DNA from: Nitrospira sp.
GTDB taxonomy: Bacteria > Nitrospirota > Nitrospiria > Nitrospirales > Nitrospiraceae
Direction: 5' to 3'
Length of the DNA stretch: 64,000 bases
Assembly: GCA_018242665.1 (NCBI GenBank)
Contig: JAFEBL010000012.1
Location: 1-64,000, forward strand
Shown here: one piece after another, positions 3,055 through 6,917 of the stretch
How the letters are laid out: the number at the start of each line of letters is the position of its first letter
Position numbering within the stretch: the first letter of the stretch is position 1
Translations under genes and position numbers: made by a program
The notes under the pieces: model-generated
Databases searched by the model: none
Told to the model about the DNA's origin: nothing
The model's input: only the letters and a program-made list of their open reading frames with translations

Positions 3055-4011
3055 TTACAGATGTCTGAGGGGAATACCGGAAACAATTACCATTCTTTCG
3101 GGATCCGACACGCCCGCGTCTTGCAATAGCTTGAGGAATGCACCGTGTACGATTTCTGGAAATGCGCAAGGTCCGATAATAATTCTGTCGAGAAGTTTGG
3201 GTATTGCCAGGTTCAGAGCATTGTTTGAATAGGTCTTCAAGCCAAACTTCCGCACGATTTGAGGTATACCACGGACGACCTCTACAGATTGCGTCACCTG
3301 TGAGGTTGGTGGCAGTAAAGTGGTCGCGATGACTCTCCACTCTCGTTCCTCATGGAAGCCTGGATGTTTTGTGCACAGCACGGTGAAAAAGAATGCCTTG
3401 AGGATCGCATTCCTCACTTTTTCCCGGCCTAGCGACTTTATGAAGGCGGCTTCGTTTTCTGCATCTTTGACAATTTTCTCAAACTCGGCCTGGAATTCAT
3501 CAATAGTTAGATACGCTACCGGGCTAGAGTATACGTTGAGCTCGTGAGAATGGCTGTGCATCGATCCACTATTCAGGACGAGCGCGACGCCAGCTGTCTC
3601 TCCATATGCCCTCCACATTGAGAGTCTTCCATTCTGATCTTCTTCAATTGGATGCTCTGACAAACATGTGATGTACGATTCTTCACGAACGCTCTCTTCC
3701 CACTTGCTAAAATCCTGATCCACCTCCGCCGCCAAACCTGGGAAACAGTTATCGATTAACTTGTTAAATCGAGCTCTCGCAGGACACTTACTAGTGGAGT
3801 GGAAGCATCCAAGTCCATGTTCCACTTCCAAATAGTCATTCATGACCGCGGTGCTTCTCATCCAGATTTCCCTGTTTCTGAGGATACTTGTCGCGGTTTC
3901 TGCAGTTGTGTAGTAAGCGAAACGGAGTTTCTTAGTGCGGACTTCATCGATCTTCTGGCTTACGTATGGGAGAAGGATACGATTGAGCCGATTTTCGTCA
4001 TCGCTGCGACG
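3055..4011 (-). pseudogene. DUF2971-family gene lacking its 5' end
   Basis: From the first ATG (3861) the frame encodes 268 residues with DUF2971 features: MRSTAVMNDYLEVEHGL, CLSEHPIEEDQNGRLSMWRA with YGETAGVALVL, and later HPGFHEEREWRVI. The frame stays open 50 codons upstream of that ATG, to an in-frame stop at 4012-4014, and that stretch (LRFAYYTTAETATSILRNRE) resembles the usual DUF2971 start ('YY-T---A--IL-NREIW'). No ATG, GTG or TTG occurs in it. The likely start therefore lay beyond 4014, where IS sequence begins at about 4024, so I read it as truncated by an insertion. AT-richer than its neighbours. DUF2971 function is unclear; members are common in defence and accessory regions. Confidence 0.62.
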
Positions 4012-4023
4012 TCACCCCCATAT

Positions 4024-4208
4024 TGAGTAGCGCCGCGATTTAGAGTCCAATCCCTTCAGGAAAGGAGATTGGATATGAAACAGCGGTTTTCAGAGGCACA
4101 GATTATCGGGTTTTTGCGAGAGGCGGAGGCGGGGCTGGCCGTGAAGGATCTGTGTCGGCGGCATGGATTCTCAGAGGCGAGTTACTACCTCTGGCGGAAC
4201 AAGTATCC
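4024..4208 (+). mobile_element. Left-end relic of an IS3-family element
   Basis: About 185 nt: a probable terminal sequence starting TGAGTAGCGCCGCGATTTAG, an AAAGGAG ribosome-binding site, and the first 44 codons of an OrfA-type transposase subunit (see 4075-4233). No matching OrfB or right end exists anywhere in the window. The relic ends where the IS110-type element begins. The left limit is placed at the TGA that follows the end of the DUF2971 reading frame, and is approximate. Confidence 0.6.
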
Positions 4209-4233
4209 TAATGGAATGGACCCATCCCTCTGA
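4075..4233 (+). pseudogene. Truncated IS3-family OrfA
   Basis: ATG at 4075 with AGGAGA 8 nt upstream. The first 44 residues (MKQRFSEAQIIGFLREAEAG, then a CRRHGFSEASYYLWRNKY helix-turn-helix) match the N-terminal DNA-binding part of IS3 OrfA proteins, normally about 90 residues. The frame then crosses into IS110 end sequence and stops after 52 residues, so the leucine-zipper half is missing. It is non-functional as a transposase subunit, although a short HTH peptide could still be made. Confidence 0.75.
4216..4230 (+). repeat. IS110-type element, left subterminal inverted repeat
   Basis: ATGGACCCATCCCTC. It pairs perfectly with 5538-5552 and is seen directly in the sequence. Confidence 0.85.
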
Positions 4234-4285
4234 CTTTGGCATGGTGGCGATCATGTGAATCCACCACTTCAAGGAGGAGGCAATC

Positions 4286-5299
4286 ATGAGCATTGCAACG
4301 TTGGGGATTGACCTAGCGAAGAATGTCTTTCACGTGCATGGACGGGATGCCGCTGGGCACCCCGTGTTCCAGAAGCGGTTCTCGCGGGCCGCGTTGGTCA
4401 CGTTCATGGCCAATCTCCCCAGCTGCCGCGTCGGGCTGGAGGTCTGTAGTGGGGCGAATCATTGGAGTCGCACGTTGCAGGCATTGGGGCATGATGTCCG
4501 CCTGATCAGCCCCCAGTTCGTCAAACCCTACGTGAAGAGTAACAAGAATGACTTCAATGATGCCGAGGCCATTTGTGAAGCCGTCCTCCGCCCGACCATG
4601 CGCTTCGTGCCTTCGAAAACCGTGGCCCAGCAAGACCTGCAAAATGTGCATCGGGTGCGACGACGCCTGATCGGGGTGCGCACTGCACTGGTCAATCAGA
4701 TTCGCGGACTCCTTGCGGAATATGGCATCGTCGTTGCCCAGCAGGTTGGCCGGTTACGGCGGGCCCTTCCCGGACTCCTCGATGATCCGAACACCCTCAC
4801 ACCCCTCGCTCGGTTGACGTTTACGTCACTGCACGAAGAACTGCGGGGGCTGGATGCCCGGATCACCGCGGTCGACCAAGAGCTCAAACGTCAATGTGTC
4901 TGCGATGAGCGCTGCCGACGCCTGATAGCGATTGAAGGCATCGGGCCACTCACGGCGACGGCGATCGTCGCCGCGGTGGCCGATCCCCATGCCTTCAAGA
5001 ATGGGCGCCATCTCGCGGCCTGGCTCGGCCTCGTGCCTCGGCAGCACTCCAGTGGCGGCAAGCCACGATTGTTGGGCATCAGCAAACGTGGGGATCGCTA
5101 TGTGCGCACGCTCCTCATTCACGGGGCTCGGGCTGTCGTGGCACGGGCGGCGACAAAGTCGGATGCCCGCAGCCGGTGGATTGCCGATAAGCGCCAGCAG
5201 CGAGGCACCAACCGGGCGTGCGTAGCGGTGGCCAATAAGAACGCACGCATCATCTGGGCGCTCTTGGCTCAAGGCACCAGCTATCGACGAGCGGCCTAA
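4286..5299 (+). CDS. IS110/IS1111-type DEDD transposase
   Basis: 337 residues, the usual length. The N-terminal RuvC-like domain shows the DEDD pattern: GIDLAKNVFHVHG (first Asp), GLEVCSGANHW (Glu), and KSNKNDFNDAEAICEA (paired Asp). A central coiled region follows, then the C-terminal Transposase_20 domain with GIGPLTATAIVAA, AWLGLVPRQHSSGG (conserved Ser) and GISKRGDRYVRTLLIHGARA. GGAGG lies about 8 nt upstream of the ATG. These enzymes carry out RNA-guided recombination through a Holliday-junction-like intermediate. No frameshift or internal stop; apparently intact. Confidence 0.93.
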   Translation: MSIATLGIDLAKNVFHVHGRDAAGHPVFQKRFSRAALVTFMANLPSCRVGLEVCSGANHWSRTLQALGHDVRLISPQFVKPYVKSNKNDFNDAEAICEAVLRPTMRFVPSKTVAQQDLQNVHRVRRRLIGVRTALVNQIRGLLAEYGIVVAQQVGRLRRALPGLLDDPNTLTPLARLTFTSLHEELRGLDARITAVDQELKRQCVCDERCRRLIAIEGIGPLTATAIVAAVADPHAFKNGRHLAAWLGLVPRQHSSGGKPRLLGISKRGDRYVRTLLIHGARAVVARAATKSDARSRWIADKRQQRGTNRACVAVANKNARIIWALLAQGTSYRRAA

Positions 5300-5537
5300 C
5301 GAAGCAAGGTGCGATGCGACTTGTCACTGCACAAGGTAAGACCGGTTGATGGCGAAATGGGTCGGACCAGCTCTTTCAAACCCTGTAAGGGGAGCAGGCC
5401 ATTGAAGGCCGATATCCTGATAAGGCGAAAGAGCGCACATTTCATCACGGCCTGAATTGACCGATCAGTTCACCCGAAGGCCGAATATATGCCCGCAGTC
5501 CGTCCTTCATCGTCATCAGGTGGGAAACCCTTGGCAG
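5300..5537 (+). ncRNA. Putative guide (bridge/seek) RNA region of the IS110-type element
   Basis: About 240 nt of non-coding sequence between the transposase stop and the right inverted repeat. In IS1111-group elements this arm encodes the structured RNA that specifies donor and target sites. The sequence has several short self-complementary stretches, e.g. GGCCATTGAAGGCC near 5398-5411. I have not folded it and cannot place the RNA's ends or its guide loops; the assignment rests on family knowledge and the asymmetric arm lengths. Confidence 0.4.
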
Positions 5538-5552
5538 GAGGGATGGGTCCAT
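5538..5552 (-). repeat. IS110-type element, right subterminal inverted repeat
   Basis: GAGGGATGGGTCCAT, the exact reverse complement of 4216-4230. Only three bases separate it from the left end of the IS3-type element at 5556. Confidence 0.85.
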
Positions 5553-5617
5553 ATATGCTCCCCTTGAAATTGAGACCACCTTCAAGACATGGTCCTGAGC
5601 GGACCAAGGAGGTGGCG

Positions 5618-5944
5618 ATGGCATCCGAATCATCAGAACCCATTGAACGCTGGACGGCCAAGCGACGCGTGGCATTGGTGGTCAGTATCCTGAAAGGCGA
5701 GACCTCCATGGCCGAGGCGGCCCGCCAGCATGCACTGACCGTGGCCGAGGTGGAGGACTGGCGGGAGAAATTTCTGCTCGGCGCGGAGAACGCGCTGCGG
5801 AGTCGGCCACGAGACGAAGAGGCCGTGAAGGACGAGCAGATCAAGAAGTTGAAGCAGAAGATTGGCGATCTGGTGTTGGACAACGACATCTTACGGGAGG
5901 CCTTGAAACCCTACCCTTTGGACCGGAAGACATCCGACGTGTGA
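5618..5944 (+). CDS. IS3-family transposase OrfA
   Basis: 108 residues. The ATG at 5618 has AGGAGG 6 nt upstream. The N-terminal half carries the helix-turn-helix (RWTAKRRVALVVSILKGETS, EAARQHALTVAEVEDWRE). Residues about 55-95 form the heptad region with KDEQIKKLKQKIGDLVLDND, the leucine zipper for OrfA multimers. It acts with OrfB as the DNA-end-binding subunit. Its stop overlaps the GTG of OrfB by 4 nt (GTGA), consistent with translational coupling or a -1 frameshift that yields OrfAB. Confidence 0.9.
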   Translation: MASESSEPIERWTAKRRVALVVSILKGETSMAEAARQHALTVAEVEDWREKFLLGAENALRSRPRDEEAVKDEQIKKLKQKIGDLVLDNDILREALKPYPLDRKTSDV

Positions 5945-6771
5945 GAGCAGGCGTGTCGGGTGTCTCGGAACGGCGGAGTTGCCAGGTGCTCGGCGTGAGC
6001 CGAGCGGGCCTGCATCGAACGGTCGCGGCGAAGGGCCGCTGTCGAGGAACCGATCCGCCGTGGACTGGGCGGCTGCATCAGTGGATTCAGCAGCATCCCA
6101 CGTTTGGGTATCGGCGGCTCTGGGTTCTCTTGCGATTTCAGGACGGGATCGTGGTGAATCGCAAAGCAGTCTATCGCGTGCTGAAGCAGAAGGGGTGGTT
6201 CATGCATCAACGCGTCTCTACGCCCCGTCCCCGCGTGCGGGGCTGGGTCAGTCGGGCCGGTCGGAGTAATGAGCGGTGGGCGATGGACGTGACGCATATT
6301 CCCTGTGGGCAAGACGGGTGGGCGCATCTGGCCGCGGTGATCGACTGTCATGATCGTGAGGTCATTGGGTATGAGTTCGCGCTTCGGAGCCGGGCGAAGG
6401 AGGCCGAACGGGCGGTTGAAGCGGCCTGTCTCGCACGGTTCGGGACACTCCGTCCTATGGGAGCGCCGGTCTTACGCAGTGACAATGGCCTGATCTTTCA
6501 GAGTCGGCGGTTTCGGCAGGCCTGTCGGGACTATCGGTTGCAGCAGGAGTTCATCACGCCCTACACGCCGGAACAGAATGGCATCATCGAACGGTTCTTT
6601 CGGAGTCTCAAAGAAGAGTGTGTCTGGCAGCACGTGTTTCAGACGTTCGACGAGGCACGGCGCATCATTCGCGACTGGCTGCAGTGGTACAACCAGGAGC
6701 GCCCCCATCAGGCGCTCGGCTATCGCAGCCCGGTCCAATACCGGGCAAAACAATCAACTCAGGTGGCTTGA
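5941..6771 (+). CDS. IS3-family transposase OrfB (integrase core)
   Basis: 276 residues from the GTG at 5941. An HTH_21-like segment is followed by HPTFGYRRLWVLLR, then the rve integrase core with the DDE triad: first Asp in RWAMDVTHIP, second in VLRSDNGLIF, Glu in NGIIERFFRSLKEE. The C-terminus WYNQERPHQALGYRSP is typical of IS3. Intact, no internal stop. It is in the -1 frame relative to OrfA. Confidence 0.93.
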   Translation: MRAGVSGVSERRSCQVLGVSRAGLHRTVAAKGRCRGTDPPWTGRLHQWIQQHPTFGYRRLWVLLRFQDGIVVNRKAVYRVLKQKGWFMHQRVSTPRPRVRGWVSRAGRSNERWAMDVTHIPCGQDGWAHLAAVIDCHDREVIGYEFALRSRAKEAERAVEAACLARFGTLRPMGAPVLRSDNGLIFQSRRFRQACRDYRLQQEFITPYTPEQNGIIERFFRSLKEECVWQHVFQTFDEARRIIRDWLQWYNQERPHQALGYRSPVQYRAKQSTQVA

Positions 6772-6917
6772 TTTCAGGGGAGCACTACACGTTCAACGAG
6801 GGCCTTCCGAGGCCGCGTTACGCGAGCGCAGGGAATCGCCAGGCCAGACATCGACTCTTCCGTCCCCTTCGACCCATCCCAACACTCCTCCTAGGCCCTC
6901 TGCTCCGACTCATTTCA

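Follow-up and report, generated by a model that had tools for sequence, protein, structure and literature searches.

Predicted guide RNA of a Nitrospira IS1111-group element and its match to the left tip of an IS3-family insertion sequence

IS4321 and IS5075 are IS1111 elements that target the terminal inverted repeat of a Tn21 family mobile element, and IS1111 elements have a 3-bp extension at the right end. The IS1111-group element described here likewise hits the end of another mobile element, its victim in this case being an IS3-family insertion sequence. The closest described systems are the seekRNA systems of ISEc11, ISPa11 and ISKpn4, for which the available part of the published account (PMC11187229) gives a 7-bp left extension, a non-coding region downstream of the transposase gene, subterminal inverted repeats, a DEDD transposase of 330-350 aa, no added target bases and a guide order in which the top-strand match lies 5' of the bottom-strand match. 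All of these recur at the present locus, as does, in predicted form, the circle-junction promoter that ISEc11 forms according to the same source. Unlike those three elements, the present one has the left tip of an IS3-family element as its target, and it is known from sequence alone. The bridge RNA of the IS110 element IS621, as far as its description was available (PMC11208160), is alike in having a target loop and a donor loop that each pair with both strands and have a core in common. IS110-group elements, however, carry the RNA upstream, in the left end, and have repeats of 2-3 bp, whereas here the RNA lies downstream and the repeats are 15 bp; the same source predicts a bridge RNA, in the right end, for 93.0% of catalogued IS1111 elements.

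As these two partly available papers (PMC11187229, PMC11208160) make plain, guide RNAs of the IS1111 kind are already published. The IS3-tip address looks new, since a search of the literature by title and abstract, mostly without subscription papers and not covering ISfinder, returned no paper describing Nitrospira IS1111 guides or an IS1111 element whose programme points to an IS3 tip. Our main reading, to which we give a probability of roughly 0.93, is that the right arm of the element encodes a guide RNA (seekRNA/bridge RNA) that steers insertion into the IS3 left tip by the mechanism set out below. The sequence evidence that points this way comprises the anatomy of the element, conservation of the RNA, matches to target and donor, covariation of guides with flanks, and occupancy of IS3 ends; from it we infer transcription, binding, circle formation, catalysis and loss of IS3 mobility.

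Anatomy of the element and of the interrupted IS3 end

The window is the whole stretch of 64,000 nucleotides that was analysed; it lies in contig C12 of a genome of 4.06 Mb (G000). An intact IS1111-group element of 1347 bp is inserted there in an IS3-family element, with the following parts.

4209..5555, forward strand: complete IS1111-group insertion sequence, delimited by its subterminal repeats (15/15), by extensions of 7 bp and 3 bp, and by reference to IS3 left ends that are uninterrupted
4209..4215, forward strand: left end extension TAATGGA, 7 bp
4216..4230, forward strand: left subterminal inverted repeat, 15/15 with 5538-5552
4286..5299, forward strand: IS1111-type DEDD transposase, 337 aa (Pfam PF01548 and PF02371; NCBIfam NF033542)
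5538..5552, forward strand: right subterminal inverted repeat, 15/15 complementary to 4216-4230
5553..5555, forward strand: right end extension ATA, 3 bp
4204..4208, forward strand: TATCC, outermost 5 bp of the split IS3 left end, from comparison with 27 uninterrupted left ends
5556..6789, forward strand: rest of the interrupted IS3-family element, with an orfA frame ending at 5944 (start not settled), orfB at 5941-6771 and the right end GGGGAGCACTACA

The earlier note had described an IS1111-group element with subterminal inverted repeats, a left arm of about 77 nt and a non-coding right arm of about 256 nt, and the measurements bear this out: the left arm measures 77 nt (4209-4285), and the right one, which lies downstream of the transposase gene, 256 nt (5300-5555). 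The 15-bp repeats fall within the group range of 7-17 bp given in the available part of PMC11208160, and they are flanked by the extensions TAATGGA and ATA. There is no target site duplication, as TATCC and TGCTCCCC rejoin to an uninterrupted IS3 end with no extra bases. Three open reading frames of at least 60 aa overlap the right arm, namely two antisense frames (5445-5675 and 5470-5889) and an upstream extension of the IS3 orfA (5489-5944); none is taken as a gene of the arm, which is taken as non-coding.

The transposase matches the Pfam families DEDD_Tnp_IS110 (PF01548) and Transposase_20 (PF02371) and scores 350.7 bits, against a cut-off of 140, with the NCBIfam model NF033542 (IS110 family RNA-guided transposase); matches to the solved IS621 and ISCro4 transposases are weak (E about 7e-6). 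Its 337 aa lie within the 330-350 aa of the group, and the GL-P----S(t)G motif is present in the translation as GLVPRQHSSG. Residues D9, E52, D89, D92 and S255, which we take to be catalytic, are unchanged across 16 aligned homologues. In the whole genome the window copy is the sole full copy found. Contig C8 holds a 366-bp stretch 71% identical to the element, and a decayed relative of the transposase, 59% identical and with two stops, was seen at positions 866-1564 of that contig. The five closest named relatives by the element are four Nitrospira metagenome-assembled contigs and one filed as uncultured Nitrosospira, and we take the host to be Nitrospira-like. A plasmid search with the element gave 815 records, but in no record did a single place cover 80% of the query; L145, one of these records, was taken in as a family member.

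Elsewhere in the window, two small adjacent genes on the minus strand (2116-2789) presumably form a toxin-antitoxin pair, because the first in reading order (2454-2789) matches the Gp49-like family PF05973; the second gave no Pfam match. A gene for a DUF2971 protein (3055-3861, minus strand) adjoins the nested insertion sequences, and a tRNA scan found none.

The identity of the interrupted element rests on orfB, which scores 236.7 bits with NCBIfam NF033516 (cut-off 160) and also matches the IS2 TnpB model below cut-off; orfA stays below cut-off. Its ends were set by comparison with other copies. For this, 100 genomes were scanned for IS3 left ends with the pattern TGCTCCCCTTGAAATTGAGACCACC (25 bases, up to 3 mismatches). 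Of the 44 places so obtained, in 23 genomes, 30 were taken on as loci and 14 were not read. Three of the 30 loci are occupied and 27 uninterrupted. The bases before TGCTCCCC in the uninterrupted ends are TATCC in 12/27 and TATNN in 22/27 (the further variants being TATAC in 5, TATCT in 2, and TATCG, TATGC and TATTC in 1 each), with other bases in 5/27. Among copies carrying the IS1111 element, the left flank was read in the window, L033, L034 and L035/36. In all of them the left flank finishes with TATCC; the right flank starts with TGCTCCCC, or in L034 with TGCACCCC. The insertion point therefore falls between TATCC and TGCTCCCCTT, 5 bp in from the left end of the IS3, and the target kept all its bases and acquired none. 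The rejoined flanks of the window element read CAAGTATCC followed by TGCTCCCCTTGAAATTGAGA, and the target site at the IS3 left tip, with a bar at the insertion point, is TATCCTGCTCCCCTT. The proposal in the earlier note that the target is the outer end of an IS3 element thus stands as regards the IS3 end, but the insertion lies inside the left tip and not at its outer edge. By splitting the IS3 left inverted repeat, the insertion would be expected to cost the IS3 element its mobility.

A 4-bp duplication is present in every one of the five intact IS3 copies that have a TATNN tip and flanks on both sides (L124, AGGC; L129, GTGG; L135, GGAA; L142, CATG; L173, CTGC), a count that leaves out L127 (left tip not TATNN), L134 (no left flank) and occupied copies with one flank. 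In the occupied copies, small in number, the duplication was seen in 0/3 (the window, 4200-4203 compared with 6790-6793; L033; L036), a lack that could be due to IS3 copies recombining with one another or to rearrangement mediated by the recombinase. Positions 4075-4203 hold the start of a second, different IS3-type orfA (HTH_Tnp_1), cut off where the occupied IS3 begins, and the left flank of L034 also has the appearance of an IS3-type orfA.

The predicted guide RNA and its two loops

The features assigned to the right arm are as follows.

5348..5500, forward strand: predicted guide RNA (seekRNA/bridge RNA) core, 153 nt, from covariance model R1 and covariation
5370..5377, forward strand: 5' strand of the main helix closing the target-binding loop, pairing with 5427-5434, with double changes in 8/8 pairs
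5387..5398, forward strand: right target guide AAGGGGAGCAGG, complementary in 12/12 positions to the target top strand (CC and, across the insertion point, TGCTCCCCTT)
5413..5419, forward strand: left target guide TATCCTG, the same as the target top strand and so pairing with the bottom strand, 7/7
5427..5434, forward strand: 3' strand of the main helix closing the target-binding loop, from covariation
5441..5447, forward strand: putative right donor guide TTCATCA, pairing with the left extension TAATGGA in 5/7 positions (6/7 in L033), assigned from the family
5485..5491, forward strand: left donor guide ATATATG, matching the right end ATATA plus the right-flank TG in 7/7 positions and the circle junction in 6/7
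5531..5536, forward strand: -35 box TTGGCA of the predicted circle-junction promoter, 17 nt before TATAAT (5554-5555 joined to 4209-4212)

The earlier note had placed a structured bridge or seek RNA downstream of the transposase and proposed that the arm be aligned with its homologues and folded. Both steps agree with it, the alignment of 21 right-arm cores giving a consensus structure (RNAalifold) of 31 pairs, 26 of them with double changes, over the predicted core. The 256-nt arm folds at -98.6 kcal/mol (z -3.55), better than 200/200 dinucleotide shuffles. Positions 5352-5500 alone reach a moderate z of -1.87, with 11/200 shuffles as good, so that the case for structure rests mainly on covariation. 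The consensus is paired in 92.5% of 638 cells, double-change cells number 115 against 35.1 in shuffles, and the covariation score is 0.485 against 0.170. None of 500 shuffles reached the observed value on any of five measures, although related rows can beat shuffles without structure, and six slid structures were far worse, a control that somewhat favours the consensus because the structure was derived from the same alignment.

The covariance model R1 finds one match in the window, at 141.5 bits (the window being one of the 21 training rows), and one place in the whole genome. Among 175 genomes of the family it has 39 matching places, spread over 29 genomes; some of these places were not taken on as loci. 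Of 48 further loci, 43 gave strong matches, 42 on the plus strand and one (L013) on the minus strand like its transposase; these are not all independent, because at least four (L035, L036, L041, L043) share their RNA with a training row. No strong match was found in the remnants L002 and L011, in L052 and L092, where the contig ends soon after the transposase match, or in L109, and two more lines of the same search are weak minus-strand matches.

The target guides lie in the first loop, with the top-strand match (5387-5398) 5' of the bottom-strand match (5413-5419) and the two overlapping at CCTG. The earlier note had expected a loop match around 4209 and 5555, and the 12/12 and 7/7 segments supply it, except that the left flank ends at 4208 and not 4209. 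Beyond sub-stretches of these two segments, the right arm has no other match of at least 7 to the rejoined flanks. Their joint guide score of 18/19 was reached by 0 of 5,000 dinucleotide-shuffled arms (maximum 16) and by 0 of 5,000 random window positions taken as target (maximum 17). The guides also distinguish the two ends of the IS3 element, fitting the left end at 12/12 and 7/7 and the right end at 9/12 and 4/7. A scan of the whole genome for the 15-base composite target gave one perfect match, at the edge of a contig whose sequence continues as an IS3 left end, and one match with 1 mismatch, in DNA that does not continue as IS3; with 2 mismatches there are eight more places, while a reversed control pattern has four within two mismatches. 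The exact 19-base junction pattern gave no match in viral contigs.

The second loop fits the element's own ends, the other half of what the earlier note had sought in the arm. Across the family, the left donor guide matches the right end plus two core bases at 6.50-6.65/7 for the element's own ends against 5.31-5.42 for others (0/20,000 permutations), and it follows changes of the core, to CG in L008 and L050 and to AG in L054 and L057. The right donor guide matches the left extension at 5.40/7 against 4.64 (1/20,000 permutations). TA opens the left end of the window element (4209-4210), whereas TG is expected from the right flank (5556-5557) and from either donor guide. L009, L049, L145, L055 and L097 show a similar disagreement, with TA on the left and TG or TT on the right, so that agreement at the second base of the supposed core is not obligatory. 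As in a bridge RNA, then, the secondary structure is conserved, the target segments stand in order and a second loop fits the element's ends. Neither of the two outcomes that the earlier note named as refuting its proposal, homologues without a conserved structure and loops without a match to the donor and target junctions, was observed.

When the right end of the window element is joined to the left, a predicted promoter arises, TTGGCA-17-TATAAT, which scores 11/12 and is matched by 0/200 shuffles. Over 47 elements the mean best score is 9.04/12 against 6.08 in shuffles, and the -10 box lies across the junction at the same offset in 46/47. For single elements at most 28/200 shuffles reach the score, L090 being the exception with 159/200. 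A promoter scan of 4000-5700 gave one site, at 5531-5559 (0.6 expected in shuffles), in which the right-end -35 box is combined with an incomplete -10 box and which points into IS3; a terminator scan of the same stretch gave no terminator-like site.

Guide programmes across the family and other readings

Across the family, guides change together with flanks. When the guide pair could be placed freely, in 34 elements (5 with short flanks left out, identical arms merged), the own-flank sum was 503 against a permutation mean of 425.8, and 0/10,000 permutations reached it. A second test fixed the register by taking the guides from model-aligned positions of 89 RNAs. Ends could not be defined for 36 of these; from the other 53, 4 with short flanks were left out and 2 duplicates merged, leaving 47 elements with 20 programmes, each represented by its first member. 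The right guide matched its own target at 7.45/10 against 4.20 for other targets, and the left guide at 6.15/7 against 2.67. The guide sum for the own target was best in its row in 18/20 programmes (0/20,000 permutations), and singly this held for the right guide in 12/20 and the left guide in 16/20. The left guide fits at 7/7 in 19 of the 47 elements and at 6/7 or better in 34. Poor fits in the fixed register are L090 (5/10 and 1/7), whose ends are probably wrong, and the programme of L158 and L163 (right guide 3/10). The left flanks of these last two have a conserved stretch in common, and their programme (TTTTCTG) may aim at a conserved gene end. The contexts of 14 elements, read without full annotation, held no clear case of another programme aimed at IS ends.

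Among the 89 RNAs there are eight distinct sites with the window programme or a slight variant of it, and seven are IS3 left ends: the window, L033, L034, L035/L036 (same flanks, counted as one site), L037, L167 (one change in the right guide) and L165 (guide and end decayed). None of the eight is an IS3 right end, though the junction pattern would fit one. That pattern occurs at 19 places, 8 with the repeat before the junction (seven IS3 left ends, two of them one site, and L192, which is L010); the other 11, without the repeat, are taken as chance. The eighth site, L010, lies between TAACC and TGCTCCCCTTGGGCC and does not continue as an IS3 end, yet its guide fit is 12/12 and 6/7; its best transposase segment is 65% identical. 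This case therefore favours the RNA, rather than IS3 identity, as the chooser of the site.

The common position of the copies might instead go back to vertical descent, or to IS3 and IS1111 having moved together, without repeated guided insertion. The same composite junction does occur in several Nitrospira-type genomes, the flanks of L035 and L036 are identical, and the occupied IS3 copies lack matching 4-bp duplications in all three cases. Against this, the left flanks outside IS3 differ in the window, L033, L034 and L035/36, the adjoining IS3 copies differ in sequence, and other programmes of the family also stand at sites that fit their own guides. Co-movement would also leave the guide match itself unexplained. 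We regard this reading as improbable.

Still less credible, at only a few chances in a hundred, is that the transposase protein itself reads the IS3 tip, the structured right arm serving solely as a binding site or regulator and the loop matches being by-products. In its favour, full same-programme copies encode related transposases, and transposase, arm and target are inherited together. Over the 20 programmes, however, the guides change with the flanks while the scaffold stays; L010 occupies its non-IS3 site in accord with its guide; the controls did not reach a 12/12 and 7/7 match in the right order; and, in the available part of PMC11187229, both circle formation and transposition of the IS1111 element ISEc11 depend on its non-coding region. 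That the arm is non-functional spacer DNA, for which the lack of an Rfam match in the window at gathering thresholds could be cited, is in our view excluded on sequence grounds by the covariation, the R1 detection in diverse hosts and the fit of guides to flanks.

Proposed mechanism and what it would mean

In the guide RNA reading, the element would excise as a circle whose joined ends form the strong promoter TTGGCA-17-TATAAT, which would drive the transposase and the guide RNA (core 5348-5500) in the transposase direction. The guide RNA would then bind the DEDD transposase. Its first loop is proposed to pair with both target strands, 5387-5398 with the top strand on the right-hand side of the insertion point and 5413-5419 with the bottom strand on its left, while its second loop would pair with the element's joined ends. 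The transposase would thereby recombine the circle into the site between TATCC and TGCTCCCCTT in one orientation, splitting the IS3 left inverted repeat.

The locus thus offers a matched set of guide, target and donor for an IS1111 recombinase from Nitrospira-type bacteria, and the 20 natural guide programmes on one conserved scaffold are useful for working out IS1111 pairing rules. By sequence, a guide here separates two similar ends of one victim transposon. More speculatively, and with the odds against it, this Nitrospira-type IS1111 lineage may be a specialised RNA-guided parasite of IS3 elements, whose guide would tell near-identical ends apart and always split the left one, so disabling the host transposon, and whose recombinase may rearrange DNA between IS3 copies, which would explain the absent 4-bp duplications.
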